Origin: Caldisericota bacterium
GTDB taxonomy: Bacteria > Caldisericota > JANLFM01
Reading direction: 5' to 3'
Assembly: GCA_024655865.1 (NCBI GenBank)
Contig: JANLFM010000006.1
Span: forward strand, 1 to 64,000
Length of the DNA: 64,000 nucleotides
Under the pieces are notes generated by a model that searched no databases, was not told the origin of the DNA, and saw only the letters and a list, made by a program, of their open reading frames with translations. Positions 14,165 to 64,000 of this stretch are shown in pieces. The position numbers were made by a program, and so were the translations under genes. Each line of letters starts with the position of its first letter. Positions within the stretch are counted from its first letter, which is position 1.

Positions 14165-14168
14165 CAAT

Positions 14169-14927: not shown

Positions 14928-14931
14928 GACC

Positions 14932-14972: not shown

Positions 14973-15051
14973 CAGCTCTTTTTCTGGGCGCTATTCATCT
15001 TTCATTTATCTTTCCGGGGAGCAGGGGCCTGTTTTTGGGAACGCCGGGCTT

Positions 15052-37899: not shown

Positions 37900-37902
37900 T
37901 CG

Positions 37903-38331: not shown

Positions 38332-38335
38332 TTCT

Positions 38336-40105: not shown

Positions 40106-40107
40106 CT

Positions 40108-43660: not shown

Positions 43661-44139
43661 CTCTCTTTACTTTCCCCCTCCTTTCTCAATAACGCCAGAA
43701 TGCCTAAGACTGCTGCCAGAATTACCAGAATCTGGGGCAATAAATCAAACAGCCTTACCTTCCAAAGAATTTCGCCCACCTCTCCCCAGCTGGTTTCAGG
43801 GATGATGTCCGCCAGGACTTGAGGCCAGAGCGCCTGGAAAAGAAAAAAGACCAGCGCCGCTAAAGCCAGGGAAAGGGCAAGCCATAGGGCAGCGCCCGGT
43901 TGCTTTTTTTCCTTCCTCTTCTGGAGGAAGGAAATCGTGAGCACCGCGAGCACGGTAATCAATCCTGCACCCACTGAGAGTTCAAAAGCTCCCGCCACCG
44001 GGGAATTAAGCTGGTAGAAAGCTATAGAGAGCAGGGCGGAAACCGTCGCCAGGGAGAGGACGGAAAGCAAGGTATCCCTCAAAAAGACAGCGAGAAGAGC
44101 AAAAAACAGAAGAAAACCTAAAGTGAGATAGATCATCAT
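43657..44139 (-). CDS. MbhD-MbhE/MrpB-like membrane subunit (NuoJ position)
   Basis: 160-residue membrane protein, first gene of the operon. 'DTLLSVLSLATVSALLSIAF' (about 22-41) and 'AFELSVGAGLITVLAVLTI' (about 51-69) fit the DUF4040/MbhD domain, and the C-terminal 'LFDLLPQILVILAAVLGILA' the MbhE-like end; in complex I the same place is held by NuoJ. This ties the membrane arm to Mrp/Mbh-type ion-pumping hydrogenases. Confidence 0.82.
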   Translation of the reverse strand: MMIYLTLGFLLFFALLAVFLRDTLLSVLSLATVSALLSIAFYQLNSPVAGAFELSVGAGLITVLAVLTISFLQKRKEKKQPGAALWLALSLALAALVFFLFQALWPQVLADIIPETSWGEVGEILWKVRLFDLLPQILVILAAVLGILALLRKEGESKER

Positions 44140-48932: not shown

Positions 48933-50039
48933 TTAAAAATTTAAAAATTTTCCGTTCTCGTAGATCACCTTTCCGTCCGCTTTCACCCTTGAGCCGTTCT
49001 TCATCTCCCGCACTATATCCCAGTGGATGGCTGACTCGTTCACTCCTCCAGATTCCGAATAGGAGTTCCCCAAAGCGAGATGCACGGTGCCCCCGATCTT
49101 TTCGTCGAAAAGGACGTTTTTGGTGCAGATCTGGATGCCGAAGTTCGTGCCGAAGGAGATTTCGCCGATCCTCCTGGCCCCGGGATCAATTTCCAAAGCG
49201 GCTTTTAGGCTCTCCTCTCCCTTTTCTGCAGAAAATTTCACCACTTCCCCGCGCTCGAACTCCAGGCGTATTCCCTCCACGGGCTTCCCGTAGAACTCGC
49301 TGGGGTATTCAAAGTAAATAAATCCCTCGGCGGAATCCTCAATTGGTCCCGTGAAGATCTCCCCGTCCGGCATATTGATTTTGCCGTCGCAGTTGATCCA
49401 CTTTCTTCCTTTGACCTTCATCCTCAAGTCGAGATTGGGGCCCTCAAAGTGCAGCTCCTCCACCTGACCTAAGAACTCGGCCAAACGCTCCTGCTCCTCG
49501 TGCACTTTCTTCCAGTAGCCCACGGGATCATTTTCGTCGGGCATGCAGGCCTGGAACACGAACTCCTGATAATCGGAGAGGGACATCCCGGCCTCCTGGG
49601 CCAGAGCATTCGTGGGGTAATCAAAGCCCACCCATTTGATGCCCCCTTCCTCCCTGGACTTCATGAACCTCTTCATAAGTGGTTCCAGAACCTTGCGCCT
49701 TCTTGCAATCCTTTTGGGATCAATGCCTGCAAGCTCCCTCAAATTTGCCGGGGCTCCGATCCCGATTTGGACGTCGAGGTGCTCTATTTCGAATTTTCTG
49801 ATCTCCGAAACGAAATCCAGTTGCTCCAAAGTTGCGTAGCGGAAGAAGATCTCGTCCAGCCCGTCCAGTCCCAGGCGCAACAGGGGATGGCCTCCGTGGA
49901 GGAGAACCTCCCTGTAGATTGCGCGCACCAGGTCCGCGGCTTCAAGGGTAGAGTTAATGACCACAACCTCTCCTGGTTTTACTTCTACGGAATAATCCAC
50001 AAGTAATTGAGCCAACTTATCAATTCTGGGGTCGCTCAT
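48933..50039 (-). CDS. M29-family aminopeptidase
   Basis: Metal-dependent aminopeptidase of the AmpS/AmpT (thermophilic M29) family, 368 residues, standard length. Visible family features: 'NMPDGEIFTGP' near residue 223 with a metal-binding Glu, 'HLALGNSYSESGGVNESAIH' near 322-341 with the metal His and catalytic Tyr, and 'WDIV' following. Cytosolic peptide breakdown; it overlaps the hydrogenase protease gene by 20 bp, so it is in the hydrogenase transcript, though no functional link is evident. Confidence 0.92.
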   Translation of the reverse strand: MSDPRIDKLAQLLVDYSVEVKPGEVVVINSTLEAADLVRAIYREVLLHGGHPLLRLGLDGLDEIFFRYATLEQLDFVSEIRKFEIEHLDVQIGIGAPANLRELAGIDPKRIARRRKVLEPLMKRFMKSREEGGIKWVGFDYPTNALAQEAGMSLSDYQEFVFQACMPDENDPVGYWKKVHEEQERLAEFLGQVEELHFEGPNLDLRMKVKGRKWINCDGKINMPDGEIFTGPIEDSAEGFIYFEYPSEFYGKPVEGIRLEFERGEVVKFSAEKGEESLKAALEIDPGARRIGEISFGTNFGIQICTKNVLFDEKIGGTVHLALGNSYSESGGVNESAIHWDIVREMKNGSRVKADGKVIYENGKFLNF

Positions 50040-50475
50040 TCTCTTCCTCTCTTTCTTGCACTTCTTTTATCAGGTTTTCCAGTATTTTAATTCCCTTTTC
50101 GGCAGAAGCCAGGGCTTCGGGTGAGAGACCCTCGCCAAAATCAAAATTGTACCCTCTTAGAGAAAGAAGAAAGGCTCGAGGTCGGCGATGATAGAGTTCC
50201 TCGAGCCAGAACAGGAATTGCTCCGGAAGGAGGTGGTGGGAAAGGAAGGAGGGCTTATTTTCCGGGAAAATTTCCCTCACCCGCACTTCCTCCCCTTCCA
50301 AAGCCGCATCTACGAATACGGCATAATCACAAAGCGCCAATTCCTCAAGGAGGTCTAAAGAAAGCTCCTGGAGGAACAACTTCTGGGCGGAAATTTCCGC
50401 TTTCTGGACGACATAATGGCCGATCCCGTCGTCCTGGCGATAAGGATTGCCGTAGGCGATTAAAAGGAGCCTAAT
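50020..50475 (-). CDS. hydrogenase maturation endopeptidase (HoxW/HyaD type) with apparent AUU start
   Basis: 151-residue protease expected to cut the HoxH tail. The diagnostic N-terminal motif 'AYGNPYRQDDGIGHYVV' with the nickel-sensing Asp is encoded, followed by 'AVFVDAALEGEEV'. No ATG, GTG or TTG occurs before this motif back to an in-frame TAG; the first usual codon is a TTG at 50379, which would cut the active site off. The codon at the normal family start is ATT (50475-50473), overlapping the HoxH stop as ATTAG. I therefore call an AUU start; a sequencing error or frameshift from HoxH are the alternatives. Standard gene finders would truncate it. Confidence 0.78.
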   Translation of the reverse strand: MRLLLIAYGNPYRQDDGIGHYVVQKAEISAQKLFLQELSLDLLEELALCDYAVFVDAALEGEEVRVREIFPENKPSFLSHHLLPEQFLFWLEELYHRRPRAFLLSLRGYNFDFGEGLSPEALASAEKGIKILENLIKEVQEREEENERPQN

Positions 50476-51895
50476 CTCTTTGAATCCTTTTTTCCAGTTT
50501 CCCCTCCTGGTTGTAGATTTCTACGATCAGGGGCATCTTCCCCACAGCATGAGTGGAGCAGGAGAGGCAGGGATCGTAACAGCGGATAGCTCCTTCCACG
50601 CGGTTGAGCATCCCTTCCTTGAGGTTTTTGCCGTCCACGAATCCCCTGGCCACGAGGTCCACAGCTTTGCTCATAGCCCAGTTGTTGTGCCCGGTAGCCA
50701 CGATCAGGTTGGATTTCTTCATGGTCCCAGTTCCGTCCACCCAGTAATGGTGAATCAGGGTCCCCCGGGGTGCCTCGATCACGCCGATCCCTTCCTCGTT
50801 TTTGGGGGTGCCGAAAGTGAAGACGTCCTGAGAAAGAATGTCGGGGTCTTTCAGGATCTCTATAGCACGCTCGGCGGCATAGAGGGTCTCAATCAAGCGC
50901 GCATAGTGGTAGTAAAGCGAGCTCTCCACGGGTTTTCCCCCGTTCACCTTTTTGAACTCCAGGAACTCCTTATGAGCCAGAGGAGTGGAGATGGAGTCCG
51001 CCACATTCAGGCGCCCCAGCGGTCCCACGCGGTAGAAACCCTCTTCCGGACCGAGCTCTTTGAAGAATGGGAACTTGAGGTAGGTCCAGTCTTCAACTTT
51101 CTCCCCGATGTATTTCAGGTAATCTTTGCCCTCGAACTCCCTGACGATCTTTCCCTCCTTATCCATGAAGCGCACAATGCCGTCATAGAGCTCTAAGGAA
51201 CCGTCCTTTTTCACAAGCCCCATATACCCGGAGGGGAAGGAAGCAAATTGATTGCACTCCTCCTTGTGCTCGGAAATCCACTTTTTGGCGATCTCGATTC
51301 CCTCCTGAATGTACGGGATTCCCTCCTCCAGGAAAGAGAGCATCTCATCCCTGCGAGCTTCATCGAGGGCGGCGTTCACCCCTCCGGGAACGGCGAAGGT
51401 GGGGTGGATCCTTCTTCCCGCCGTAAGCTCAATGATTCTCTGCCCAAATTTGCGCAGCTTCACGGCCTTTAAGGCTATATCCGGGTTAGCCTGAATCAGC
51501 CCCACCACATTGCGCACGGCGGGGTCCGCATCCCACCCCAAAAGGAGGTCCGGGCCAGCCAGCTCAAAGAAGTGCATGGCGTGGGACTGGACAATCTGTC
51601 CCATGTGGACAAGCTCTCGCAGAAGTTTGGCCGGCCTGGGAATGTCCACGCCGATGACGGCGTCGCAGGCTTTGGCCGAGGCTAAATGGTGAGAGATGGG
51701 GCAGATGCCGCAGATGCGCTCGGTGATCATGGGCATCTCCGAGAAGGGCCTGCCCTCGGTGAATTTTTCATAACCGCGGTACTGATCCACGTGGAAGTAG
51801 GTCTTTTCCACCTTTCCCTGATCGTCCAGGAAGATGGAAACCCTGGCGTGACCTTCAATTCTGGTAACTGGATTTATCGTAATTTTTTCTCCCAT
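50471..51895 (-). CDS. hoxH: soluble [NiFe] hydrogenase large subunit (group 3, HoxH-like)
   Basis: 474-residue catalytic subunit. The nickel ligands are Cys62/Cys65 in 'ERICGICPISHH' and Cys443/Cys446 in 'DPCLSCSTH'. After His449 a 25-residue tail is expected to be removed by the endopeptidase encoded next. The 'INPVTRIEGHARVSIFLDD' opening is typical of group 3 cytosolic hydrogenases (3c/3d). It pairs with the HoxY-like subunit 8 bp upstream and with the diaphorase genes before that. Reversible H2 oxidation in the cytosol. Confidence 0.96.
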   Translation of the reverse strand: MGEKITINPVTRIEGHARVSIFLDDQGKVEKTYFHVDQYRGYEKFTEGRPFSEMPMITERICGICPISHHLASAKACDAVIGVDIPRPAKLLRELVHMGQIVQSHAMHFFELAGPDLLLGWDADPAVRNVVGLIQANPDIALKAVKLRKFGQRIIELTAGRRIHPTFAVPGGVNAALDEARRDEMLSFLEEGIPYIQEGIEIAKKWISEHKEECNQFASFPSGYMGLVKKDGSLELYDGIVRFMDKEGKIVREFEGKDYLKYIGEKVEDWTYLKFPFFKELGPEEGFYRVGPLGRLNVADSISTPLAHKEFLEFKKVNGGKPVESSLYYHYARLIETLYAAERAIEILKDPDILSQDVFTFGTPKNEEGIGVIEAPRGTLIHHYWVDGTGTMKKSNLIVATGHNNWAMSKAVDLVARGFVDGKNLKEGMLNRVEGAIRCYDPCLSCSTHAVGKMPLIVEIYNQEGKLEKRIQRD

Positions 51896-51903
51896 AGTTC
51901 CTC

Positions 51904-52446
51904 CTAATCGTACTTCAGAAGCTCTTCTTTGAGCTCTGGGGTTTTCCCCTCCAGGATATCCTTGAGCACTTTATAGATAGCGTCCGCCGAGGGAGGGCAA
52001 CCGGGAATGTAGAAGTCCACCTTTACCACTTCGTTCAGGGCCATGCACTTCTTGAGGTGTTTGCCAATTCCCGGACCCTGGGGGATCTTTCCCTCCACCG
52101 TGCTCTCAGTGTTTACATATCCTCTTTTTAAAAGCTCCTCGATGGGAATGTAGTTTCTCATGGTGTTGATCCCGCCGAAGACCGCACAGTCCCCTAAAGC
52201 AACCAGGATCTTGCAGCGCTCGCGGAAGAGTTTCGCTACCTCCTCGTGGTGGTCGGTGGCCACTGCTCCCTCGAGCACCCCGATATCCGTTCCGAAAGCG
52301 GGGACCTTAAGGTCGGTTATAGGTGTGGCGGTGATCACCAACCCCTCATTGATCAGCTCCACTAATCGCTCATCCATATCTAAGAGGGACATGTGGCAAC
52401 CCGCACACCCCTCTAACCAGTCGCTCGCTAAGGTTATCTTCTTCAT
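51904..52446 (-). CDS. hoxY: soluble [NiFe] hydrogenase small subunit (HoxY-like)
   Basis: 180-residue subunit with the proximal [4Fe-4S] cluster. Ligand motifs 'GCAGCHMSLLD' near residue 13, 'GDCAVFGG' near 86 and 'GCPPSAD' near 150. Short, one-cluster form as in group 3d enzymes, without signal peptide. Links the nickel site in HoxH to the NuoG-like subunit encoded just upstream. Confidence 0.95.
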   Translation of the reverse strand: MKKITLASDWLEGCAGCHMSLLDMDERLVELINEGLVITATPITDLKVPAFGTDIGVLEGAVATDHHEEVAKLFRERCKILVALGDCAVFGGINTMRNYIPIEELLKRGYVNTESTVEGKIPQGPGIGKHLKKCMALNEVVKVDFYIPGCPPSADAIYKVLKDILEGKTPELKEELLKYD

Positions 52447-52468
52447 GGCGTTCCTCCTGACCTTTGCC

Positions 52469-54121
52469 TTAAATTTTTAGAAGCCGAGAGGAGATCTCTT
52501 CCACGGTCAAGACACCCTCGGCAGGGGTAACTACTCTCTGGCGCACAACTTTTTTACCCTCTAAGGTGATAAAGGTTCCCTCATCCTCCAGATACCAGGT
52601 AATGGGGATTAACAGGTCGGCTACGGATTTGAGTTCCGGGGTTTCAAAGGGAGTAAAGGCAACGATAAAATCCCCTGGGGAACGGGCGGAGGAAATGTTT
52701 TCCCCGACATAAATTTTCACTTTTTCCTGGGGTACTTTATGTTCGATCCCCAACTCCTTAAGGGCCATAGTGTTAGCCTCGTAGGGTAAAAAGAGATATT
52801 TGAAGCCGGATTCGGTCTCTAATCTCTCACTGATCCCCTCGGGGAGGGAAGAGTAAACGGCAACAACCTTTTCCCCTTTTCTGGCCTCTCCCAGAGCGGT
52901 ATCAATGTCTTTATATTCGTAAGAGAAATCCGTAATTCCAGAGAGGCTACCCGCTTCCACAGCAATCAGCCTGGCGTTCTGGGGGACGACCCTGCGCTTG
53001 ATCATGGAGCCCACGACCCCGTAGCGCTCGTTCAAATCCACGCCCACTACGAGGTAGGTATCTGCATCCTCCAGGTCCTTTAAAGTGGCCGTTGATGGGA
53101 TGGGAGGATTAACCTCGTTCAGAGCGAAAACCCTGTCTCCCAAAGCCGACTTAAAGGCTTGAAGGAGCTCCAGTGGCAGGCTCCCCTCCAAAAATACCGT
53201 TGCCGCTCCCTTTTTCTCGCTGATCACTTTGAAAGCCATCTCGGGGGAAATCTGGGTCCAGATTCCTCCTTCCTTTAACTTAGGAGCGTTGAGGCGGGGC
53301 CGGTCTTCATAAAGGGGAAGGTAGCGTCCGTTCTTGCACAACACTCCCTGGTTAATCGGTGAATCCCAATCCCCGTAAACCTTCAAAATGAAGTTCGCCC
53401 GCCTGTAAACCTCGATGCCGCAACCCACGGGGCAGCGATCGCAATTCGTCTTGATGACCTCCGCTTGCTCTTTCCTTCCCAGGTAGGAAGCCCTTTTATC
53501 CACCAGCGCTCCGGTGGGACAGACCTGGACACACAGTCCACAGGAAACGCAGGAAGACTGAGCAAACTGGTTATTCAGATCAATGTTGATCAGGCTCTGG
53601 TAACCCCGGTTCTTTACTTCCAGCACGAAATGTCCCCCAAGTTCAGCGCAAGCCCGAGCGCAACGGCGGCAGAGCACGCAGCGGTTCTGATCTAGAAGGA
53701 TGTACGGGTGAGAGACATCTACAGGATACTTATCCTCATAGGGAGGGAATTCAAAATGATCCAGACCGAATTTATATCCCAGGTCCTGGAGCTCGCAGTT
53801 TCCGCTGGACTCGCAGTACATGCAGTAGTGGTTGCGCTCCCCGAAAAGGAGCTGGAGTACCGTCATCCTCACTTCCTGGATTTCCGGAGTGGAGGTCTTT
53901 ACTTCCATCCCGTCCGTAACATAGGTGGCGCAAGCCGGCTTCAAGGCTCCAGGTCCAGCTTCCACCACACACATGCGGCAGGCTCCATAGGGAAGTAACT
54001 TTTCGTGGTAACAAAGGGTGGGAATTTCAATACCCGCTTCCTTCGCCGCTTCCAGTATGGTCTTACCTTCTTCTACTTCAATTTCTTTTCCGTCTATTTT
54101 CAGTCTCACTTTTCCCATCAT
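52469..54121 (-). CDS. NuoG/HoxU-like iron-sulfur subunit with truncated molybdopterin-type region
   Basis: 550-residue electron-wire subunit. N-terminal [2Fe-2S] domain ('CYHEKLLPYGACRMC' near residue 37), His-Cys3 [4Fe-4S] region ('GERNHYCMYCESSGNC' near 93), two [4Fe-4S] clusters ('CVLCRRCARAC', 'CVSCGLCVQVC' near 147 and 190), and a further cluster at the start of a molybdopterin-like domain ('CDRCPVGCGIEV' near 231). The remaining 300 residues match that domain poorly and show no cofactor motif. Longer than HoxU (about 240) and shorter than NuoG. Two ATGs in a row at 54121 and 54118; the second is better spaced from AGGAGG. Confidence 0.92.
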   Translation of the reverse strand: MMGKVRLKIDGKEIEVEEGKTILEAAKEAGIEIPTLCYHEKLLPYGACRMCVVEAGPGALKPACATYVTDGMEVKTSTPEIQEVRMTVLQLLFGERNHYCMYCESSGNCELQDLGYKFGLDHFEFPPYEDKYPVDVSHPYILLDQNRCVLCRRCARACAELGGHFVLEVKNRGYQSLINIDLNNQFAQSSCVSCGLCVQVCPTGALVDKRASYLGRKEQAEVIKTNCDRCPVGCGIEVYRRANFILKVYGDWDSPINQGVLCKNGRYLPLYEDRPRLNAPKLKEGGIWTQISPEMAFKVISEKKGAATVFLEGSLPLELLQAFKSALGDRVFALNEVNPPIPSTATLKDLEDADTYLVVGVDLNERYGVVGSMIKRRVVPQNARLIAVEAGSLSGITDFSYEYKDIDTALGEARKGEKVVAVYSSLPEGISERLETESGFKYLFLPYEANTMALKELGIEHKVPQEKVKIYVGENISSARSPGDFIVAFTPFETPELKSVADLLIPITWYLEDEGTFITLEGKKVVRQRVVTPAEGVLTVEEISSRLLKI

Positions 54122-54133
54122 TTACCTCCTGAA

Positions 54134-55708
54134 TTATTGAACAAGGGGAAGGAATTCTTCCCGGAAGTTTTCCAAAGCAGATTTCACAGGCATGATCAGA
54201 GATTGCCCCAGAGGACATAGTGAGGAGTACCACAAGGCTTCTGACAGCTTGACCATTGTATTCAGATCCTCCGCTTTCCCTTTTCTCTCCAGAAGGTGTC
54301 CGGAAATGCGGTATAACTCTCGCGTCCCGGAGCGACAAGGAGAGCACTGTCCACAGGACTCGTGACGGAAGAAATAGAGTACTGAGTGCAACATTTTTGG
54401 GATGGAGGCTTCTTGACTCATCACCAAAATAGCGCCCGACCCGAGGACGGCTTTGTACTGCTTCAAGTTATCGAAATCCATGCGCACATTGAGGAGGGAT
54501 TCCGGGAGGAAAACCCCTGCTGCCCCACCCACTAAGGCTGCTTTGAACTTTTTCCCTCCTTTAATGCCCCCTCCGTAGCCAAAAATAATTTCATAAAGCG
54601 TAGTTCCCATCTCAACTTCTATCAGGCCAGGAAAGTTCACGTCGCCTAAAATGGTGTACACCTTCGTTCCGGGACAGGACTCCGTACCCATAGTGCGGAA
54701 CCAATCCGCTCCTTTTCTGATAATTGCGGGAATATTCGCTAAGGTCTCCACGTTGTTGATCACGGTGGGACTGCCAAAAAGGCCTACTACTGTGGGATAA
54801 GGGGGTTTAATGCGGGGGTTGCCCCTTTTGCCCTCCAGGGATTCCATGAGCGCGGTTTCCTCTCCGCAGACATAGGCGCCGGCCCCTTCTTTGATTTCCA
54901 GATTAAAGGAGAATCCGCTGCCCAAAATGTCTTCTCCTAAGAGCCCATATTTTCGGGCATCCTCGATGGCCTTGTGCATCCTGTGCAGGGAAAGAGCATA
55001 CTCCCCTCTGATGTAGATATATCCTTTCCTGGCACCCACGGCGTAGCCCGCGATGATCAATCCTTCAATCAGTTTATGGGGGTCACCCTCCAGAATCAGC
55101 CTGTCCTTGAAGGTCCCGGGCTCCCCTTCGTCAGCGTTGCAGATGATGAATTTTTCCATAGCCGAGGCCTTGCGCGCTCCCTCCCATTTAATTCCTGTGG
55201 GGAATCCGGCTCCTCCTCTTCCTCTCAGGCCGGATTTCTTGACCTCGGCAATGACCTCATCCGGGGTCAGGGAGAGGGCTTTTTCCAGAGCAGTGTAACC
55301 ATCTCGCGCCAGGTACTCCTCGATTTTCTCAGGATCGATTATACCTGAGTTCTCAAGGACCACCCTCTTTTGCTCCCTCATGGGGCCTATCAGGTCCCTT
55401 CTTACTGCCCTAACAACCTCTTCTTTTATGATCAGGTCCTGAACCGGACGGCCCTTGAGGAAATGCTCCTCCACGATCCGAGGACAGTCCTCAGGTTTCA
55501 CCTTCCCGTAATATATGCGCTCTGGATAGACTGCCAGAACCACGCCCAGCCCGGTAACTCCCAGGGTTCCAGTTTCCAGAACTTTAATTTCCTCCAAGAG
55601 GCCTCTCCGGGAAATCTCCTCTTTCAGTCTTTTTAAAACCTCCCAGGCTCCTGAGGCCACGCTTTCGATATCAATCGATACCAGGACATGACTGCGAGCT
55701 AATCTCAT
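54134..55708 (-). CDS. NuoF/HoxF-like NADH-binding subunit, cysteine-free N-terminal domain
   Basis: 524-residue diaphorase subunit. FMN loop 'GRGGAGFPTGIKWEG' near residue 169, NADH-site 'GAGAYVCGEETALMESLEG' near 275 and the C-terminal [4Fe-4S] 'SCGQCSPCRSG' near 456 with the fourth ligand in 'SLCPLG' are intact. The N-terminal thioredoxin-like domain (about 5-95), which in HydB/HoxF binds [2Fe-2S], has lost all its cysteines ('TGTLGVTGLGVVL' where TGCxGxC is usual). It also lacks the extra C-terminal ferredoxin domain of HydB. Overlaps the NuoE gene by 4 bp. Reacts with NAD(H). Confidence 0.93.
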   Translation of the reverse strand: MRLARSHVLVSIDIESVASGAWEVLKRLKEEISRRGLLEEIKVLETGTLGVTGLGVVLAVYPERIYYGKVKPEDCPRIVEEHFLKGRPVQDLIIKEEVVRAVRRDLIGPMREQKRVVLENSGIIDPEKIEEYLARDGYTALEKALSLTPDEVIAEVKKSGLRGRGGAGFPTGIKWEGARKASAMEKFIICNADEGEPGTFKDRLILEGDPHKLIEGLIIAGYAVGARKGYIYIRGEYALSLHRMHKAIEDARKYGLLGEDILGSGFSFNLEIKEGAGAYVCGEETALMESLEGKRGNPRIKPPYPTVVGLFGSPTVINNVETLANIPAIIRKGADWFRTMGTESCPGTKVYTILGDVNFPGLIEVEMGTTLYEIIFGYGGGIKGGKKFKAALVGGAAGVFLPESLLNVRMDFDNLKQYKAVLGSGAILVMSQEASIPKMLHSVLYFFRHESCGQCSPCRSGTRELYRISGHLLERKGKAEDLNTMVKLSEALWYSSLCPLGQSLIMPVKSALENFREEFLPLVQ

Positions 55709-56163
55709 TTTCCCCTCCGCAAATCATTAAGGACAGAACGAACTTTCTCCGGTGTCAGGTTTCCGTAGACCTCCTCGTTGACCATCATCGCCGGAGCTAC
55801 ACCGCAGACCCCGAGGCAGGAGGATAATTCCAGGGTGAAAAGGCCATCCGGGGTGGTCTCTCCCACTTTTATGCCCAAAAAGTTGCTCACCGTATCAATA
55901 ATTGACTCGGCGCCCACCAGATGGCAGGGAGGGGATTCACAGATGCGGATGATGTATTTCCCCCGGGGCTTCAGGCTGAACATGGAATAGAAAGTGGCCA
56001 CACTGCTCACAAAGCTCAAGGGAAGGGAAAGGTAATTTGCCGCCAGTTTCAAATCCTCTTCCTCGAGATAGTTCTGAGGGTTGCTCCTCTGAAGAGCATG
56101 GAGCAGGGATAAGAGGTTTTCCTTTCTGGGCTCAAACCTTTTCAGGATTCTCACCTTTTCCAT
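55705..56163 (-). CDS. NuoE-like [2Fe-2S] subunit (copy 2)
   Basis: 152-residue thioredoxin-fold subunit. The four [2Fe-2S] ligands are visible: 'CESPPCHLVGAESI' near residue 74 and 'SSCLGVCGVAPAMMVNEEVY' near 113. Pairs with the NuoF directly downstream, with which it overlaps by 4 bp. Normal length for NuoE/HoxE. The 57-bp gap upstream holds ATTAAC-C-GTTAAT, a short inverted repeat. Confidence 0.93.
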   Translation of the reverse strand: MEKVRILKRFEPRKENLLSLLHALQRSNPQNYLEEEDLKLAANYLSLPLSFVSSVATFYSMFSLKPRGKYIIRICESPPCHLVGAESIIDTVSNFLGIKVGETTPDGLFTLELSSCLGVCGVAPAMMVNEEVYGNLTPEKVRSVLNDLRRGK

Positions 56164-56220
56164 AAAGGTCCCTCTTTCCCGGATGATCTATTAACCGTTA
56201 ATTGCTTTTTTCCGGTCATC

Positions 56221-59200
56221 TCAACCTCCTAAAGGAATTCTCACTTTTTCCTTTTCCAATTTTTCGCTCACGACCTCCTTGCCCCTATCGCACTTCAGGC
56301 ACCTCTTCGATTCCTCAAGGGCCTCCTGAAGAAGAATCCCCTTATTCACTTCGATGAATGATTTAATTCTCTCCTCAACCATTTCCAGAGCTGGAGTTTT
56401 CCTGGGGATCACCTTCAGGTATTCCTCCTCGTTGAAAGAGGTCTCTACCACTTCCCTCCTGGGGAAGGGGAATTTTCCTTCATACCCGAAGTGTCTGTCA
56501 ATGGAGAGGGCGGCCTTCCTTCCCTGGCCCACAGCTTCCACAACGGTCGCGGGGCCCAGCACAGCGTCACCGCCTGCGAAGACTCCGGTTAAACTCGTCT
56601 CCAGGGTATCCTTGTCAACCTTTATCGTTCCGTCCCTATTGGTCTCCAATTCCTCAGCAAATCCTGAAAGCTCTGGCCTCTGCCCGAGGCACAGGAGCAC
56701 GAAATCCGCCTCTATTTCGAATTCCGTTCCCTCTTTGGGCACCGGTCTCCTTCTTCCGCTCTTATCGAACCCCTGGAATTCCATCTGCACGCACCTTATC
56801 TTTTCCACTCTTGTTGATCCGGTGAATTCTATGGGGTTCGTCAGGAAGTAGAATTTGATGCCTTCTTCGATGGCTTCCTCCACTTCCGTAGCCTGCGCGG
56901 GCATTTCCTCCCTGGACCTTCTGTAGATTACGGAAACTTCGCTGGCCTTAAGCCTTAAGGCAGTTCGGGCCGCATCCATGGCGGTTGAGCCACCACCGAC
57001 CACTGCCACCCTCTTCCCCTTGAGGTCCATTTTCTTCCCCAGGTTCACTTCGCGCAGGAAATCAATGCCGCCTGTAATCCCTTCCAGCTCCTCGCCTTTG
57101 ACGTTTAACTTTTCTGAGCGGTGGGCCCCTATGCTGATAAAGACAGCGTCAAAGCCCATCTCCTTCAGCTCCTGAAGGCTCGAAACCGGAGAATTAAGTC
57201 TCAGCTCCACCCCTGATTCCACAATCCTGGCGATCTCCTCATTCAGGACATCCTTGGGGAGTCGGTAGTCCGGGATGCCCACGCGCATCATTCCCCCGGG
57301 CACAGGAAGGGACTCGAACACTACGGGCCTGTAGCCCAGCCTGGTAAGGAAGTAAGCGCAGGAAAGTCCCGCAGGGCCAGCACCGACAATGGCCACTTTT
57401 TCCTTCCTAAGTTCTAAGGGAGGGTTGAATTGCACGTCGTTTTCTCTGGCCCAATCCGCAAAGAGCCTCTTTACCTCCCTGATAGCGATGGGTTCATCGA
57501 ATTTGCCCCTCTCGCACGGTCTTTCACAGAATGCGGGACAGACCCTGGCGCACACGCTGGGGAAAGGATTGTTCTCCATGTGCACCAGGAAAGCCTCTTT
57601 GAGTCTTCCCTCCGTCATATGGGCGAGGTAGCGAGGGACATCCACACCCGCGGGACAGGCATTGGTGCAGGGGGCATAGAAAAGCGAAGCGCACACTCCG
57701 GCGCGACACTTCTTGTAAAGAACGTGTTCCAGAAACTCTTCAGGGAAATATTTTAAACCGGTAAGGACCGGGTTGGGGGCTGTCTGCCCCAGAGCGCACA
57801 TAGAGGAGCTCTTTATCTGTTTTCCCAGTTTTTCCAAAAGAGTTAGGTCCTCCAGCGTGCCCTGCCCGTTCGTGATTCTGTCGAGAATGCTGTACATTTG
57901 CTTCAGGCCCACCCTGCAGGGGGTGCACTGGCCACAGGATTCCGACATCGTGAACTCCACGAAGAACTTGGCCATGTTCACCATACAGTTGTCCTCGTCG
58001 AGGACGATCATTCCTGCAGAGCCGATTATGGAACCCGTCTTCTCTATTTCCTTATAATCCACAGGCAGGTTCAAAAATTCGCTCGTGATGTAACCGCCTG
58101 AAGGGCCACCCATCTGGATGGCCTTGAATCTTTTCCCTTTGGGGATCCCGCCGCCAATATCGAAGATTACCTCCCCCAGAGTCAATCCGAAGGGAACCTC
58201 AATCAAACCGGTATTGTTCACCTTTCCTGAGAGCGCGAAGAGTTTAGTGCCCTTGCTGTTCTCCGTGCCCATGGAGGCGAACCACTCTCCCCCGTTTAAA
58301 ATGATGTGCCTGATGTTGGCCAGAGTTTCCACGTTGTTGACCAGCGTGGGTTTTCCCCAAACACCCTTCTGGGCAGGATATGGAGGCTTGAAGCGCGGCG
58401 TGCCTCTTTTCCCCTCAAGGGAATTTAAAAGAGCGGTTTCCTCTCCAGCGACGAATGCTCCGGCTCCCATTCTCAGCTCTATATCAAAATCAAACCCTGT
58501 CTCTAAGATGTTTTTCCCCAGTAAACCGTATTTCCTTGCCTGTTCCAGGGCAATTTCCAGCCTCTTGATGGCCAGAGGATACTCGGCGCGGATGTAGATA
58601 TATCCGTGGTGGGCGCCTATGGTGTAGCCGGCAATAATCATCCCTTCGATTACCGCATGAGGATCGCCTTCGAGGATTGCCCTGTCTTTGAAAGCCCCAG
58701 GGTCTCCTTCATCGGCATTGCAGACGACGTATTTTTCATCGCCCTTCGCTTCCCGTGTGAATTTCCATTTCAGGCCCGTGGGAAAACCGGCGCCTCCTCT
58801 TCCTACTAATTTCGACTTGATCAGTTCCTCGATCACCTTTTCAGGCGTCATCTCTGACATGACTTTGGCTAAGGCCTCGTACCCTCCGTAGGCGATATAC
58901 TCCTCGATGTTTTCCGGGTCGATTCTGCCGCAGTTTTTAAGGACAACCTTCTCTTGCTTTTCGAAGAAGGGGATCTTCTTTTTTTCCTCGACGATCTTCG
59001 CGGCCTCAGGGGCAGTCCATAAAAGCCTTTTTACGGGTCTTCCCTTGAGGAAGTGCTCTTCAACTATTTGGGGAATGTCCTCGTCCTTGAGCTTTACGTA
59101 AAAGGAACCCTCGGGGTAGACAATCATCACTGGGCCCAGCTGACAGGGACCCATGCACCCGGTTCCCACTATGTTGACTTCCTCTTGAAGTTGCCTCCTC

Positions 59201-59295
59201 TCTAATTCCTCCTCCAGCTTCTTCTTGAACTCCAGGCTGTGCGAGGAGAGGCAGTTTGCTCCCGTACAGATGAGAACGTCCAGTCTTTTCCTCAT
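56221..59295 (-). CDS. NuoF-like diaphorase fused to a GltD/NfnB-type FAD-NAD(P)H oxidoreductase
   Basis: 1024-residue fusion. A thioredoxin-like [2Fe-2S] domain ('CTGANC', 'TGCMGPC') occupies about 1-95, and the NuoF core carries FMN loop 'GRGGAGFPTGLKW', NADH site 'GAGAFVAGEETALLNSLEG' and [4Fe-4S] 'SCGQCTPCRVG'. Near 540-610 a cysteine-rich domain as in GltD/NfnB/DPYD ('CTNACPAGVDVPRYL', 'CARVCPAFCERPC') is followed by a FAD domain 'VAIVGAGPAGLSCAY' near 635 and an NAD(P)H domain 'VAVVGGGSTAMDAA' near 765, and a C-terminal 'CLKCDRG'. It has two pyridine-nucleotide sites and two flavins, the makings of an electron-bifurcating or transhydrogenating subunit. Confidence 0.93.
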   Translation of the reverse strand: MRKRLDVLICTGANCLSSHSLEFKKKLEEELERRQLQEEVNIVGTGCMGPCQLGPVMIVYPEGSFYVKLKDEDIPQIVEEHFLKGRPVKRLLWTAPEAAKIVEEKKKIPFFEKQEKVVLKNCGRIDPENIEEYIAYGGYEALAKVMSEMTPEKVIEELIKSKLVGRGGAGFPTGLKWKFTREAKGDEKYVVCNADEGDPGAFKDRAILEGDPHAVIEGMIIAGYTIGAHHGYIYIRAEYPLAIKRLEIALEQARKYGLLGKNILETGFDFDIELRMGAGAFVAGEETALLNSLEGKRGTPRFKPPYPAQKGVWGKPTLVNNVETLANIRHIILNGGEWFASMGTENSKGTKLFALSGKVNNTGLIEVPFGLTLGEVIFDIGGGIPKGKRFKAIQMGGPSGGYITSEFLNLPVDYKEIEKTGSIIGSAGMIVLDEDNCMVNMAKFFVEFTMSESCGQCTPCRVGLKQMYSILDRITNGQGTLEDLTLLEKLGKQIKSSSMCALGQTAPNPVLTGLKYFPEEFLEHVLYKKCRAGVCASLFYAPCTNACPAGVDVPRYLAHMTEGRLKEAFLVHMENNPFPSVCARVCPAFCERPCERGKFDEPIAIREVKRLFADWARENDVQFNPPLELRKEKVAIVGAGPAGLSCAYFLTRLGYRPVVFESLPVPGGMMRVGIPDYRLPKDVLNEEIARIVESGVELRLNSPVSSLQELKEMGFDAVFISIGAHRSEKLNVKGEELEGITGGIDFLREVNLGKKMDLKGKRVAVVGGGSTAMDAARTALRLKASEVSVIYRRSREEMPAQATEVEEAIEEGIKFYFLTNPIEFTGSTRVEKIRCVQMEFQGFDKSGRRRPVPKEGTEFEIEADFVLLCLGQRPELSGFAEELETNRDGTIKVDKDTLETSLTGVFAGGDAVLGPATVVEAVGQGRKAALSIDRHFGYEGKFPFPRREVVETSFNEEEYLKVIPRKTPALEMVEERIKSFIEVNKGILLQEALEESKRCLKCDRGKEVVSEKLEKEKVRIPLGG

Positions 59296-59306
59296 TATTG
59301 GGCTCC

Positions 59307-59669
59307 TTATTCTTCAACCTGAATTACGTACTCGGAGACCACCACCCCATTCACTATGTGTTCTGCCACTATCCTTTTCGCCACTTCCGGCGTAACCATT
59401 CCATAGACTATCCCGGGTTTTCCAGACTCCTCCACGATCACCACCGGTTCCTGGGAAGCCAGCCCTTTTTCTCCGGTCTGCGTCACGAGGACGTCTGTGA
59501 GATTTCTATTTTCAATTTCCGACAAAAAGGCCCTTAAGGTCTCCCTTGCTCCGGCCGCAATGCCGCTGGTTCCCATTCCAATGATGATTTTTATTCTTGC
59601 TTTTCCCTCTCTCAGGCTCAGTTCCTGTTGAACCCTTTCTCTTATTTTTCTCAGCTCTTCCAGCTTCAT
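59307..59669 (-). CDS. thioredoxin-like ferredoxin homologue without cysteines
   Basis: 120-residue protein of the (2Fe-2S) thioredoxin-like ferredoxin family seen beside HydB/HydC. 'IIGMGTSGIAAGARETL' near residue 28 and 'VVIVEESGKPGIVYGMVTPE' near 76 fit the family, but the positions normally held by cysteines read Ser, Glu and Ala ('GTSG', 'TGEKGLAS'); the whole protein has no cysteine. It can therefore not hold an iron-sulfur cluster and is probably a structural or docking subunit. It lies between NuoE copy 1 and the NuoF-GltD fusion, 11 bp before the latter. Confidence 0.85.
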   Translation of the reverse strand: MKLEELRKIRERVQQELSLREGKARIKIIIGMGTSGIAAGARETLRAFLSEIENRNLTDVLVTQTGEKGLASQEPVVIVEESGKPGIVYGMVTPEVAKRIVAEHIVNGVVVSEYVIQVEE

Positions 59670-59734
59670 TCTCCATCCTCCGTATTTTTATTTTTTATCT
59701 TGTAAGTTTTGAGGGATCAGATCAAAGGTAAGGC

Positions 59735-60235
59735 TCAGCGATCGAGCTCCCTTTCCCGGATCCCCTTTATGACATTGACCACCTTGAGGGGAGTCAACCT
59801 GCCGTAAATCTCCTCGTTAACCATCATGGTTGGGGCTAAACCACAGGCACCAAAACAGCGAGCAGTAGACAGGGTGAAGAGCCTGTCCTCCGTGGTCTCC
59901 CCTACATCGATCTTGAGCTCCTTACAGACGGCCTTCAAAACGTCAGCCGCTCCCTTTACGTGACAGGCAGTCCCCAGGCAGAGGTTTATGACGTACTTCC
60001 CTACGGGCTGTGTGCGGAAAAAATGGTAAAACGTGATCACTCCCAGGATCTGGGATGGGGGAACATGCAGCTCTCTGGAAATGAAATATTGCACTTCCCT
60101 GGGAAGGTATCCAAAAAGTGACTGGGCTTTATAGAGAACGTTGAGCAAGGCGCCTTTAGAGTTTTTGTGTTCCGCTATGAATTCCCTCAGTTCCTGGTAC
60201 TGCTCGTTCTCAGGAATAACAATCTGCTCGTTCAT
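59735..60235 (-). CDS. NuoE-like [2Fe-2S] subunit (copy 1)
   Basis: 166-residue thioredoxin-fold subunit with ligands in 'CLGTACHVKGAADVL' near residue 86 and 'ARCFGACGLAPTMMVNEEIY' near 125. Probably partners the NuoF-GltD fusion, giving two NuoE-NuoF pairs in one operon. The open frame extends to 60268, but an AGGAGGT SD five bases before the ATG at 60235 decides the start. It seems to be the first structural gene after the AT-rich gap. Confidence 0.93.
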   Translation of the reverse strand: MNEQIVIPENEQYQELREFIAEHKNSKGALLNVLYKAQSLFGYLPREVQYFISRELHVPPSQILGVITFYHFFRTQPVGKYVINLCLGTACHVKGAADVLKAVCKELKIDVGETTEDRLFTLSTARCFGACGLAPTMMVNEEIYGRLTPLKVVNVIKGIRERELDR

Positions 60236-60347: not shown

Positions 60348-60908
60348 TTAATCTTGTTCAGGAAAGATCCTCTCCAGCTCCTTTACTTTCTCATTTATGA
60401 ATTCTCTCAAAAACTTAATCACCGAGGGATGAGAAAGGGGCACATCATTTAAAATCGCTTTTATTTCTCGAGTGTCCAGAACCAGTTCCCTTCCGTTTTT
60501 TAAATAGCGGAAAAGGATGTCCGCTCTTTCTGAAGCGTAAACCAGGGCCAGTATGGTCCCGCGCAAATCCCCCAGCGGGGGAAGGTCAATATGGCTGCGC
60601 GGAAATTGTGCTTTTATCCTCGTGCCTTTCCCGGCCTGGGATTTGACCTTTAAATCACCTCCGGTGGAGAGGGCCGTCTGCTTCAAAAGGGGAATTCCCA
60701 GGCCCACTTTCTTTCCGGACTTGGTGGTGAAAAAGGGATCTTCCACCATTTTCAGAGTCTCTTCATCCATACCCCGGCCGTTATCTTCCACCGTGATCTC
60801 CAGAAGATCCTCCTTGATTCGTTCTCTGATCTCTACGGAGATCAAGCTGGCTCCTGCGCTAATCGAGTTCTGCACAATATCCAGAACGTGGAGAAGGAGT
60901 TCATCCAT
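60348..60908 (-). CDS. histidine-kinase-like ATPase (HATPase_c) regulatory protein
   Basis: 186-residue protein with the GHKL ATPase fold alone: N box 'HVLDIVQNSISAGAS' near residue 7, 'VEDNGRGMDEETL' near 40, 'GLGIPLLKQTALSTGG' near 69. No phosphorylated histidine domain, so it resembles anti-sigma/kinase ATPases. Proteins of this type sit in HydABC loci (for example the Thermotoga maritima TM1420s) where a sensory role is proposed. Overlaps the PHP gene by 8 bp. Confidence 0.85.
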   Translation of the reverse strand: MDELLLHVLDIVQNSISAGASLISVEIRERIKEDLLEITVEDNGRGMDEETLKMVEDPFFTTKSGKKVGLGIPLLKQTALSTGGDLKVKSQAGKGTRIKAQFPRSHIDLPPLGDLRGTILALVYASERADILFRYLKNGRELVLDTREIKAILNDVPLSHPSVIKFLREFINEKVKELERIFPEQD

Positions 60909-61692
60909 TTCCTAAGGGTTCCCTCCCGATTTCTAAGCGGATTATCCCTCTTCCCCCTTTCCCCTCCAGAGCGTACCTCAATTCTTCAAGGGTGGGGCTT
61001 TCCATCTGGAGTACCGTTACCGCCCTGCCGATTTCCTCGGGATAGTGGGCATCGGAAAAGGATACCAGAGGATACCCCAAGAGGTCGCGCGCTGAGGGAT
61101 TCTTTTTCAAAAAGGCGTGGGAGACCTCAAGGGCAGGAAAGTGCAGTTCAGGAGGGATAAATCCCAACTGCCCGGCAAGGCTGAAGTGAAAGGAGTCCAC
61201 ATGTGCGGGAATAACCAGTCCTCCCATTTTTGTAACAAGGCGCGAGAGGCCCTCCAAAGAAATCGCCACGGAGTTCAGAAGAAGCTTCTCCTCAAAATAG
61301 ATCACGTTTTCCTCCTCGTCCACGGCCACCTGGTCTCCAAAGTGCTGAGGGTCGTTCTTCACCTGCGGGAGACGGTCGTAAATTTCCTTTCCAAAAAGTT
61401 CAAAGGAGGAGGGGTCATCAAAATAAACGAGGAGGTGCGCCTCCTCCTGAGTTTGCACTTCTATTCCATAAAAGAAGGGCAGGCTCCTCTTCCGCGCCAT
61501 TTTTCCCAGCGTTACGCTGTTTAAAGTTGCGTTGTGGTCTGTGATGGCCACTAAATTTATCCCCATTCCCACTACACTTTCCAGGATGCGCGAGGGGGAC
61601 ATTTTCAGGCTTCCGCAGGGGGAAAGCGTGGAGTGGATATGAAGGTCAGCGCGGAATTTTTCCACCTTGAAGCAACTGGAAAATTTTTCCAC
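60901..61692 (-). CDS. PHP-domain protein
   Basis: Metal-dependent phosphoesterase-like protein, about 263 residues. 'RADLHIHSTLSPCGSLKMSP' near residue 14 and 'VAITDHNATLNSV' near 51 carry the PHP metal-binding histidines and aspartates; 'PAHVDSFHFS' and 'SFSDAHYPEEIG' complete the set. Homologues occur in [FeFe]-hydrogenase regulatory clusters; substrate unknown. Two possible GTG starts, 61692 and 61665, each begin a GTGGAAAAATT copy; neither has a good SD. Confidence 0.87.
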   Translation of the reverse strand: MEKFSSCFKVEKFRADLHIHSTLSPCGSLKMSPSRILESVVGMGINLVAITDHNATLNSVTLGKMARKRSLPFFYGIEVQTQEEAHLLVYFDDPSSFELFGKEIYDRLPQVKNDPQHFGDQVAVDEEENVIYFEEKLLLNSVAISLEGLSRLVTKMGGLVIPAHVDSFHFSLAGQLGFIPPELHFPALEVSHAFLKKNPSARDLLGYPLVSFSDAHYPEEIGRAVTVLQMESPTLEELRYALEGKGGRGIIRLEIGREPLGNG

Positions 61693-61993
61693 TCAGGGTA
61701 AAGGCATCATCCGGACTTCCTAAAAGCCAGATCCCCTCTTCCTCAGCTTTCTTCATCACATCCTCTTCCGGAAGTAGCTCCTGAGCGATGATTATTGCGG
61801 GAATTTCCTTAAGCGCTGCTACGGCCACGATGTTCACGTGCCTTTGCACGGTAATCCACAGGGCCCCAGAAGGAGCGGAACCAATCACCAGGGAAAGGAG
61901 GTCCCCAGTATATCCCTTATCTATGGAAGCTTCTTTCCCGGTGGCATACACCTTTAAATTTAAATGGTCGATTATTTCTTTAATACTCACCAT
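61646..61993 (-). CDS. DRTGG-domain protein (copy 2)
   Basis: 115-residue protein of the DRTGG-like type, the ligand-binding domain also found in phosphotransacetylases and CBS proteins: 'VYATGKEASIDKGYTGDLLS' near residue 15 and 'AVAALKEIPAIIIAQELLP' near 57. Probably a small-molecule or protein sensor of the hydrogenase locus. Overlaps the PHP gene by 47 bp (or 20 bp with its later start). Confidence 0.8.
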   Translation of the reverse strand: MVSIKEIIDHLNLKVYATGKEASIDKGYTGDLLSLVIGSAPSGALWITVQRHVNIVAVAALKEIPAIIIAQELLPEEDVMKKAEEEGIWLLGSPDDAFTLSGKIFQLLQGGKIPR

Positions 61994-62045
61994 TTTCAGC
62001 TACACCTCGCTTCTAATTTAGCCCGGGGGCAAACTAACCCTTCTT

Positions 62046-63257
62046 TTAGAGGAAGATGCAGTCCTCAAGAGAAGCTTCGCCCTTGGCAACGTCCTCTGCC
62101 AGTGCCCTGCAAGTGGGAGCACCACATGACCCGCAGTCTATTTTGGGAAGTTTCTCGTAGAACTTATCAATCATCTTCAGGAGCTTGGCGGCGGCTTCCA
62201 TATTTTCGGAGAGAAAGTACTGCGGTCTTGGTTGGATGGGCATAGTTAAATAGAGAAAATCCGCCATATCCTCCCTGGAAAGAGGGGAAATCGCATTTTC
62301 CCTCTTTCGCTCTTCCTGCTCCAGACGGTAAAGGTTCAAAAAGGAGTCCCTCTCAGGGAGGAGGATGCCCCCCACGCACCCATTGGGACAGGAGCGGCCT
62401 TCAATCAGGTCAAGGGCGGGCACCTTTTCCATCTCGAGCTCTTTTAAAAATCTGACCACGTTGGTGATCCCGTCAATCGCCAGCACCCTTAAGGGAGAGA
62501 GGAATTCCTTTTCCCCGCCAATTCTGCCAATGGCTACCCCGCTCGGACCCGAAAGGTGTACTTTCCCCGAGGTAGTCTCATTGACCCTGAGGATTTCCCG
62601 ATAGAGGATATTCGCTGCGATCACACCATCGTAAGGGGATTTCTCGATCCCCTGGGGGTTCCTGATGGCAGTAATTTTGGCGGGGCAGGGTGCAAGATAG
62701 AAAAGCCCCGAATTTTTTCCTAACTTACGCCTGACTGTGGCCCCCAAAATGTCCCTGGGAGTATTCAAGGGGGAAAGATGTGAGAGCAGATCAGGAAACC
62801 TGACCTGCATCAGCCTGATCACGGCCGGGCAGGCGACGGAAATCAAAGGTTTCTTCACATTCCCCTTTGTCAGGATGCGGCGCGTTTCCTCTAAATAGGC
62901 TTCCTCGCCTATCCCCTCCTCGTAGACCTCCTGGAACCCCAGGGCAAAGATTCGGCCCATTACTTCGGATGTGCTTAATCCCAGGAAATCCAGGGAGAGA
63001 AAGGCGGGAGGAATCACCAGCACTCTGTATTCGTAGTGAGAGAGAACCGAAAGGTCATCGGTTAAAACCTCGTTCGCTCCCCAGGGGCAGAAGCGCACGC
63101 AATCGCCGCAATCAATGCACTTTAAATCCTTGATTTGAGCTAAACGGTTTCTCACCCTGATGGCCTCTGTGGGACAATTGCGCAGGCAATGGGTACAGCC
63201 CTTGCACACGTCCTCCTTTATGCGCAGTGAATGGAAATAAAGGTTAAACGCTGGCAT
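62046..63257 (-). CDS. [FeFe]-hydrogenase-like sensory iron-sulfur protein
   Basis: 403-residue protein. N-terminal two [4Fe-4S] clusters (Cys18/21/24/28 and Cys47/50/53/57), then an H-cluster-type domain with all four cluster cysteines: Cys143 in 'SVACPAV', Cys191 in 'APCPAK' and Cys290/Cys294 in 'GRSCPNGC'. The proton-transfer cysteine next to Cys143 in catalytic enzymes is Ala142, so catalysis is unlikely and a sensory role is favoured. A C-terminal [4Fe-4S]-like domain (Cys375, 378, 383, 400; 'CGSCGAPTC') follows. HydEFG genes needed for an H-cluster are not in the window. Confidence 0.85.
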   Translation of the reverse strand: MPAFNLYFHSLRIKEDVCKGCTHCLRNCPTEAIRVRNRLAQIKDLKCIDCGDCVRFCPWGANEVLTDDLSVLSHYEYRVLVIPPAFLSLDFLGLSTSEVMGRIFALGFQEVYEEGIGEEAYLEETRRILTKGNVKKPLISVACPAVIRLMQVRFPDLLSHLSPLNTPRDILGATVRRKLGKNSGLFYLAPCPAKITAIRNPQGIEKSPYDGVIAANILYREILRVNETTSGKVHLSGPSGVAIGRIGGEKEFLSPLRVLAIDGITNVVRFLKELEMEKVPALDLIEGRSCPNGCVGGILLPERDSFLNLYRLEQEERKRENAISPLSREDMADFLYLTMPIQPRPQYFLSENMEAAAKLLKMIDKFYEKLPKIDCGSCGAPTCRALAEDVAKGEASLEDCIFL

Positions 63258-63684
63258 TGGGAATATCTATTTCAAAAATCACTTTCGTGCCCTTTCCGGG
63301 GTGGCTCTCAATAAGCAATCGGTCGGCATTTTTCTTGATATTGGGTAAGCCCATCCCTGATCCAAAACCCATTTCCCGAATCTCCGGAGGAGCAGTGGAG
63401 TATCCCTCCTTCATGGCTAACTCCACGTCCTCGATCCCTGGTCCGCGGTCCGTGGCGGTAACCCTGATCATTTTCGGATAGACTTCAAGTAAGAGCTCTC
63501 CTTTTTCCGTATACACGATGATGTTCATTTCCGCTTCGTATGAGGCGATGGCTGTCCTTTTTATAACCTGGGGATTGATCCCCATGCGCTTTAAAGCCTC
63601 CTTTATGTCTGAAGAAGCCTCACCCCCGTGCTCAAAGTCTCGCCCCTGAATCTGGTATGTGTGGCTGTAAAGCAGGTCGTTCAA
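63244..63684 (-). CDS. anti-sigma-factor-like serine kinase ATPase (RsbW type)
   Basis: 146-residue GHKL ATPase of the RsbW/SpoIIAB type: 'TAIASYEAEMNIIVY' near residue 43, 'VTATDRGPGIEDVELAMK' near 75 and 'GSGMGLPNIKKNADRL' near 107. Overlaps the sensor gene by 14 bp, pointing to a stoichiometric partnership. No sigma factor or anti-anti-sigma (STAS) gene is seen in the window. Confidence 0.87.
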   Translation of the reverse strand: MNDLLYSHTYQIQGRDFEHGGEASSDIKEALKRMGINPQVIKRTAIASYEAEMNIIVYTEKGELLLEVYPKMIRVTATDRGPGIEDVELAMKEGYSTAPPEIREMGFGSGMGLPNIKKNADRLLIESHPGKGTKVIFEIDIPNASV

Positions 63685-64000
63685 GGTCCCCTGGTTATTC
63701 GGGCCCCTTCGATTCCAGCTTTATAGAGCAGCCCGCAGGTAACGAAAACGATGAGCTCCGTGGATACTACGATTACTCCTTTTTCCTCACCCAGGGTTAT
63801 CGTTTCCCAGGGGACGCGTTTCCCTCGGGCCACGATTACCATGGGAATGTCCATGAGCACTGCTGTGCGCACAATTTGAGGGTTAGTTATTCCTGTTATC
63901 AGGACCACGTCCCTGTTCTCTACTTCCACCAGGGCCAGTACGTCGCTTAATAAGTCAGCGGCGAATCCCCTTTTAATTTCCACTTCATCCAGCAGGGATT
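63681..64000 (-). CDS. DRTGG-domain protein (copy 1, 5'-partial)
   Basis: The frame runs off the right edge: before 'VEIKRGFAADLLSDVLAL' the sequence continues with 'SLLDE', as in full-length DRTGG proteins, so the start is outside the window. 'GITNPQIVRTAVLMDIPMVI' and a C-terminal 'STELIVFVTCGLLYKAGI' fit the family. Overlaps the RsbW-like gene by 4 bp and leads the visible sensory cluster. Confidence 0.82.
   Translation of the reverse strand, partial: SLLDEVEIKRGFAADLLSDVLALVEVENRDVVLITGITNPQIVRTAVLMDIPMVIVARGKRVPWETITLGEEKGVIVVSTELIVFVTCGLLYKAGIEGARITRGP

Follow-up and report, generated by a model that had tools for sequence, protein, structure and literature searches.

The analysed window, positions 1 to 64,000 of contig JANLFM010000006.1 (assembly GCA_024655865.1), belongs to a Caldisericota-like genome of 1.82 Mb in 63 contigs and carries a [NiFe] hydrogenase gene set, located entirely on the minus strand, that runs from 60235 down to 50471 and is followed by a maturation protease. 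The operon of [NiFe] subunits, a NuoG-like protein, two NuoE, two NuoF and a free thioredoxin-like gene reported in a preliminary description of this DNA is present at that place. The identities of all named genes are backed by Pfam, NCBIfam and PDB searches; Pfam recognized two NuoE, two NuoF with their flavin mononucleotide (FMN) and 4Fe-4S domains, the N-terminal domains of NuoG, Oxidored_q6 and NiFeSe_Hases. The genes are spaced by 8-65 bases, and NuoE2 and NuoF2 overlap by 4 bases. The features are the following:

59735..60235, minus strand: NuoE1, HydC-like [2Fe-2S] protein and partner of NuoF1 (PF01257, 1.7e-50; four cluster cysteines visible)
59307..59669, minus strand: thioredoxin-like HndB/HydD-type protein (weak NF041612 match; sequence; neighbourhoods)
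56221..59295, minus strand: NuoF1-GltD fusion of 1024 amino acids (Pfam, PDB matches)
57694..59295, minus strand: NuoF1 part of the fusion with N-terminal [2Fe-2S] cluster B5, FMN/NADH domain, cluster B1 and B2 site (768 bits to 7t2r_B; ligand table)
56221..57693, minus strand: Stn/GltD-type part of the fusion with two [4Fe-4S] clusters, flavin adenine dinucleotide (FAD) and NADP(H) sites (Pfam, alignments, AlphaFold/Foldseek)
55705..56163, minus strand: NuoE2, [2Fe-2S] protein and partner of NuoF2 (PF01257, 4.1e-47)
54134..55708, minus strand: NuoF2 of 524 amino acids, FMN/NADH domain and B1 only (ligand table, tree)
52469..54121, minus strand: HydA/BfuA (NuoG-like), clusters A1-A5, no H-cluster (Pfam; alignment to 7t2r_A)
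51904..52446, minus strand: HydS, [NiFe] hydrogenase small subunit (PF01058)
50471..51895, minus strand: HydL, large subunit of the [NiFe] hydrogenase; the two CxxC motifs are present and the C-terminus is cleavable (587 bits to 7t2r_D; tree)
50020..50466, minus strand: hydrogenase maturation protease (TIGR00072; start uncertain)

Of the named relatives found, the nearest is a Caldisericota metagenome-assembled genome whose HydL is 90% identical. In this congener (locus L004) the gene order is the same, and the eight proteins share 80-92% identity with those of the window although the synonymous sites are near saturation, so that purifying selection acts on the entire set. Contamination or misassembly as the source of the doubled NuoE-NuoF was rejected, as L004 and other phyla show the same order.

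Among proteins of solved structure, those closest to HydL, HydA, NuoF1 and NuoF2 all come from HydABCSL of Acetomicrobium mobile, a bifurcating enzyme (PDB 7T2R), and in the HydL tree the large subunit grouped with A. mobile HydL (0.99) and apart from HoxH and MvhA (HoxH, 5xf9_D, grouped with L043). The proposed kinship with the A. mobile enzyme was thus borne out; the earlier naming of the large subunit as HoxH has to be given up, as both its phylogeny and its PDB matches place HydL nearer to A. mobile HydL and outside the HoxH clade of group 3d HoxEFUYH. The latter enzyme (PDB 5XF9) shares the [NiFe] H2/NAD architecture and the NuoEFG-like diaphorase, but has HoxH in the place of an A. mobile-like HydL and a short HoxU in the place of a full-length HydA. 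The ligands for clusters A1-A5 of HydA, including A3, were conserved in the alignment to 7t2r_A; a Pfam search of HydA gave no match to the Fe_hyd_lg_C/H-cluster domain and placed the GltD-type domain not in this subunit but in NuoF1.

The two NuoF proteins are not equivalent paralogues. For their comparison 47 NuoF sequences, and later 25 more, were aligned with A. mobile HydB and scored for cluster ligands (positions from PMC8880783, PMC9304861) and FMN-loop motifs (criteria from PMC7311640). NuoF1 retains the four N-terminal cysteines of B5, the B1 site, Phe180, GAGAF and GGPSG, and its pentacoordinate B2 ligand set is complete (Cys437, Thr475, His524, Cys530, Cys535). Among its FMN-loop markers Ala, Phe and GGPSG are kept and Met is replaced by Lys (AFK for AFM), a substitution that among the 17 GltD fusions is confined to this genus (window 56221-59295; L004 2605-5679), whereas the other fusions keep Ala-(Phe/Tyr)-Met. 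In NuoF2, the N-terminal cysteines and every B2 ligand are lost, the loops read TFK, GAGAY and GGAAG, and the protein ends after B1; with Thr and Lys at the 232/234 positions and without B2-B5 it displays the pattern of non-bifurcating beta-subunits and, by its motifs, looks like a plain NADH dehydrogenase. The same loop residues, without extra clusters, occur in the non-bifurcating NADH-dependent hydrogenases of S. wolfei and S. aciditrophicus (PMC7311640), in which, however, this protein is the sole NuoF and does not accompany a bifurcating-type paralogue. The diaphorase module is doubled as previously stated, but not as two equal copies, which the ligand table and the tree rule out. NuoF2-type proteins (class 2) were monophyletic (ultrafast bootstrap 98) and occurred in Caldisericota, Chloroflexota, Bipolaricaulota (L042) and Lithacetigenota (L015); since the Chloroflexota equivalents, which have no C-terminal domain, still possess B2 residues, we infer that features were lost step by step on the way from an ancestor of the bifurcating type to class 2.

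In A. mobile HydB, the ferredoxin-like domain with clusters B3 and B4 comes after the last B2 ligand (PMC8880783). This domain is present in neither NuoF of the window: NuoF2 has no counterpart, and NuoF1 carries a GltD/StnC-type domain instead (residues ~540-1003; Fer4_20 and Pyr_redox_2), the first cluster cysteine of which stands 8 residues after the last B2 ligand. The additional FAD-NAD(P)H domain noticed earlier on one NuoF is this domain. Its [4Fe-4S] ligands are seven cysteines plus Lys609; these residues, Arg678 and the B2-site residues Cys437, His524, Cys530 and Cys535 were invariant in 17 of 17 fusions. Lys609 and Arg678 are the equivalents of StnC K170 and R239, respectively; K170 ligates the FAD-adjacent cluster in StnC (PMC10482914), and NfnB has a Glu at this position. 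The invariant Lys thus points to a domain of the Stn kind, the FAD of which would relay electrons and not bifurcate them, and disfavours a bifurcating FAD of the NfnB type. Two further GltD-containing proteins with the StnC-type Lys (1468 and 1244 amino acids) are encoded at 1180-5586 and 12151-15885 of another contig of the same assembly (L114, G000:C33), with further Fe-S proteins nearby.

The StnABC transhydrogenase of Sporomusa ovata (PDB 8OH5, PMC10482914) likewise combines a Bfu-type core with a GltD-type NADPH domain containing K170 and R239; there, the domain resides in the A subunit (StnC), StnB keeps the ferredoxin domain and no hydrogenase is attached, in contrast to its position in NuoF1 here. 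This comparison bears on a four-carrier enzyme, in which the GltD clusters would also exchange electrons with ferredoxin like the distal cluster of NfnB, so that H2, NADH, NADPH and ferredoxin were coupled. The two [4Fe-4S] sites of the domain are indeed homologous to those of NfnB, and in some relatives (L029, L030, L034, L046) NuoF2 adjoins a NuoF1 that retains the ferredoxin domain. But neither NuoF of the window possesses such a domain, and StnABC, whose kind the Lys indicates, reduces ferredoxin at StnB and not at StnC (PMC10482914); the link to ferredoxin foreseen in the preliminary description is thus unsupported, a coupling of all four carriers is a guess, and we consider it improbable.

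According to the NuoF tree, the fusions are scattered among ferredoxin-type class 1 proteins, and a single ancestral fusion with vertical descent is unsupported: the GltD operons of Chloroflexota (L035, L039, L048) nest among operons that have the ferredoxin domain in the same position (L029, L031, L033, L034). Most GltD domains nonetheless group together in the GltD-domain tree. AlphaFold gave a confident two-part model of NuoF1-GltD (predicted local distance difference test score, 82.7), one half of which matched HydB/StnB in Foldseek and the other StnC, NfnA and NfnB; among the matches listed no PDB chain spans both halves.

The neighbourhoods of related HydL genes were counted for 31 loci having at least 8 kb upstream. 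Both NuoF classes were present near HydL in nine loci, five with GltD (L004, L035, L039, L042, L048) and four with the ferredoxin domain (L029, L030, L034, L046); ten loci had class 1 only (eight of these with GltD), three class 2 only, eight neither class nearby and one a HoxF-like protein. In other Caldisericota, the NuoF pair lies by a formate dehydrogenase (L104, L110, L111) or an [FeFe]-hydrogenase (L112, L113, L118). The number of A subunits is informative: G005 (100% complete, 10 contigs) encodes two NuoFs and one HydA-type subunit, the single contig of G009 two NuoFs and one FdhA, and G018, G012 and G013 likewise two NuoFs and one A subunit. A separate A subunit for each NuoF was rejected, as no second one was found in these five genomes. 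In consequence, both NuoFs must share the A subunit, unless class 1 works without one; as judged from the gene counts, they probably do so. Two genomes rated 100% complete, G002 (L057) and G003 (L054), contain HydA-S-L without a detectable NuoF, which reflects either a gap in the assembly or a hydrogenase devoid of NuoF.

These counts make the formation of two separate complexes, which had been considered as an outcome from the start, less likely, since genomes with one A subunit for two NuoFs exist. In such an arrangement, NuoE2-NuoF2-HydA-S-L would be a simple NAD-linked hydrogenase and NuoE1-Trx-NuoF1-GltD a HydA-independent transhydrogenase encoded nearby; NuoF2 and HydA do occur without NuoF1 in L024 and on the short contig of L069, and Bfu cores without a BfuA homologue have been proposed (type 4; PMC9304861). 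Yet in eight loci NuoF1-GltD is the sole NuoF immediately preceding HydA-S-L, and in L107 it stands, as a single NuoF-GltD, before an [FeFe] HydA; it evidently pairs with A subunits, and a division into two units is accordingly held to be quite unlikely. L069 (G000:C49, 856-3190) is itself part of the same assembly: this contig of 3.2 kb lacks NuoF1 and holds a second NuoE2-NuoF2-HydA start (identities of 58, 67 and 82%), which may represent either another operon or contamination.

In the known Bfu enzymes, electrons from H2 pass through HydA and B1 to the FMN, where NAD+ is reduced, and the low-potential electrons proceed via C1, B2, B3 and B4 to ferredoxin (PMC8880783, PMC9304861). With B3/B4 exchanged for the Stn-type domain, the last step would most simply be redirected to NADP+. 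We tentatively favour, at somewhat less than even probability, a soluble enzyme of the NiFe-HydABCSL type with one HydA-S-L core and two different NAD modules, in which NuoF1 would bifurcate towards NADP+ and NuoF2 would perform plain H2/NAD exchange. Electrons from H2 would flow from the NiFe site via S1 and the HydA clusters to B1 of the docked NuoF. In NuoE1/NuoF1, the FMN-C1-B2 centre would feed NAD+, and low-potential electrons would move from B2 through the attached [4Fe-4S]2-FAD domain to NADP+; in the reverse direction, NADH and NADPH would yield H2. NuoE2/NuoF2 on the same core would serve as an additional, non-bifurcating NADH port. Given potentials of -280 mV for NAD, about -380 mV for NADP and -414 mV for H2 under standard conditions (PMC9304861), the NADH/NADPH mean of about -330 mV balances H2 near 10^2 Pa (own arithmetic, 25 C, pH 7), so the enzyme could run in both directions at moderate H2. 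That both NAD heads are present in the same particle, a bifurcating one ending in NADP+ and a non-bifurcating NADH head that together set the pools of H2, NADH and NADPH against one another, and that such a two-head diaphorase is a general module also of formate dehydrogenases and [FeFe]-hydrogenases, is a more far-reaching idea that we regard as unlikely, albeit conceivable.

Several observations weigh against bifurcation towards NADP+ on a shared core. The linker between the NuoF1 and GltD halves is of low confidence in the AlphaFold model, and to our knowledge HydA-type subunits have only one NuoF docking site. Class 1 NuoFs with full B2 and B5 ligands exist in other Caldisericota that lack any C-terminal domain at all (L104, L105, L106, L110, L111, L113), so that the exit of electrons from B2 is unexplained in these proteins. 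The HydB of S. wolfei, in which B3/B4 are missing, does not bifurcate (PMC11406978, PMC7311640), and the replacement of the bifurcation-marker Met (PMC7311640) by Lys in NuoF1 renders bifurcation itself uncertain. If NuoF1-GltD were non-bifurcating, the complex would be a conventional oxidoreductase of H2, NAD(H) and NADP(H), to which GltD merely added NADP(H) and NuoF2 a second NAD site. The AFK loop, the loss of B3/B4 and the S. wolfei precedent fit this alternative, as does the presence of NfnAB in the genome (L115), by which NADPH could already be balanced; however, NuoF1 has kept the B2 ligands, the B5 cysteines, GAGAF and GGPSG, all of which were lost or altered in NuoF2, and every other GltD fusion retains Ala-(Phe/Tyr)-Met, so that we regard it as doubtful, though the most serious of the alternatives. 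The window also encodes, at 34504-44139 (minus strand), a group-4-like membrane [NiFe] hydrogenase (complex-I 49 kDa and 30 kDa subunits, NADHdh, three Proton_antipo_M, Oxidored_q3 and a HycI-type protease); together with NfnAB, this antiporter-containing hydrogenase links ferredoxin, NADPH and H2 by other routes as well.

Compared with A. mobile NiFe-HydABCSL (NiFe-Bfu, type 3; PDB 7T2R, PMC8880783), the bifurcating-type enzyme favoured here has HydL, HydS, HydA with A1-A5, HydC and the HydB core B1/B2/B5 in common and differs by the NADP(H) domain in the place of the B3/B4 ferredoxin domain and by the second, non-bifurcating NuoE-NuoF. With regard to the type 3 definition, [NiFe] SL, a BfuA with A1-A5 and, in NuoF1 only, B2 and B5 were found, but no ferredoxin-like domain (IPR017896). 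Because the published Bfu definition demands that domain, the enzyme is formally not a member of the family; it is homologous to it and probably works similarly. An exchange of B3/B4 for DPD_II and an FAD/NAD(P) domain was published in 2024 for group A3 [FeFe]-hydrogenases as sub-type I BfuB, without biochemistry (Zheng and Huang 2024, PMC11406978). There, the partner is an [FeFe] BfuA with H-cluster, here it is [NiFe] HydSL, and NuoF1 is paired with a second NuoF; furthermore, the FAD was suggested in that work as possibly bifurcating, whereas the invariance of the Lys speaks for an FAD that relays electrons.

The remaining genes of the region add the following observations. The thioredoxin-like protein contains no cysteine, and its gene usually lies beside the class 1 NuoF in relatives. 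The protease reading frame extends back into the end of hydL without a stop codon (50379-50481, minus strand), and none of ATG, GTG and TTG occurs in it ahead of 50379; translation might begin at an ATT that overlaps the stop codon of hydL. A scan for promoters and terminators gave no excess of sites over shuffled sequence. Upstream of NuoE1 lies one further block:

60348..63983, minus strand: co-directional regulator block of HATPase, PHP, HPr-kinase-N-like (DRTGG), Fe-hydrogenase-like 4Fe-4S protein, HATPase and DRTGG-like genes (Pfam)

Comparable blocks adjoin the NuoF pairs of other Caldisericota (L104-L106, L113, L118). The 403-amino-acid protein at 62046-63257 (minus strand) of this block has Fe_hyd_lg_C-like and FeS domains and may sense H2 or the redox state; genes like it occur by the NuoF pair in L105 and L106.

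The evidence is drawn from metagenome assemblies and single-chain structure models. In the literature searched, mostly outside subscription papers, no account was found of the NuoF-GltD swap in a [NiFe] enzyme, of a pairing of class 1 with class 2 or of an A subunit with two NuoFs; the [NiFe] context, the conserved NuoF pairing and the shared A subunit appear to be new. The founding survey of the Bfu family, from which metagenomes were left out, required a BfuBC core with the ferredoxin-reducing B3/B4 domain (PMC9304861). In this family, the core of which was thought invariant, a natural swap has set an NADP(H) domain right behind B2, and a degenerate, non-bifurcating paralogue stands beside NuoF1, apparently on the same A subunit. 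If NuoF1 bifurcates, the bifurcation centre would be separated from ferredoxin chemistry: NADP+ would then be expected to receive its electrons through the C1-B2 branch, and the role of B2 would become testable. The paired paralogues offer a natural comparison of a bifurcating-type and a non-bifurcating NuoF on a common partner, and the recurrence of the pairing in several phyla suggests what looks like a real way of tying H2 to two electron carriers.

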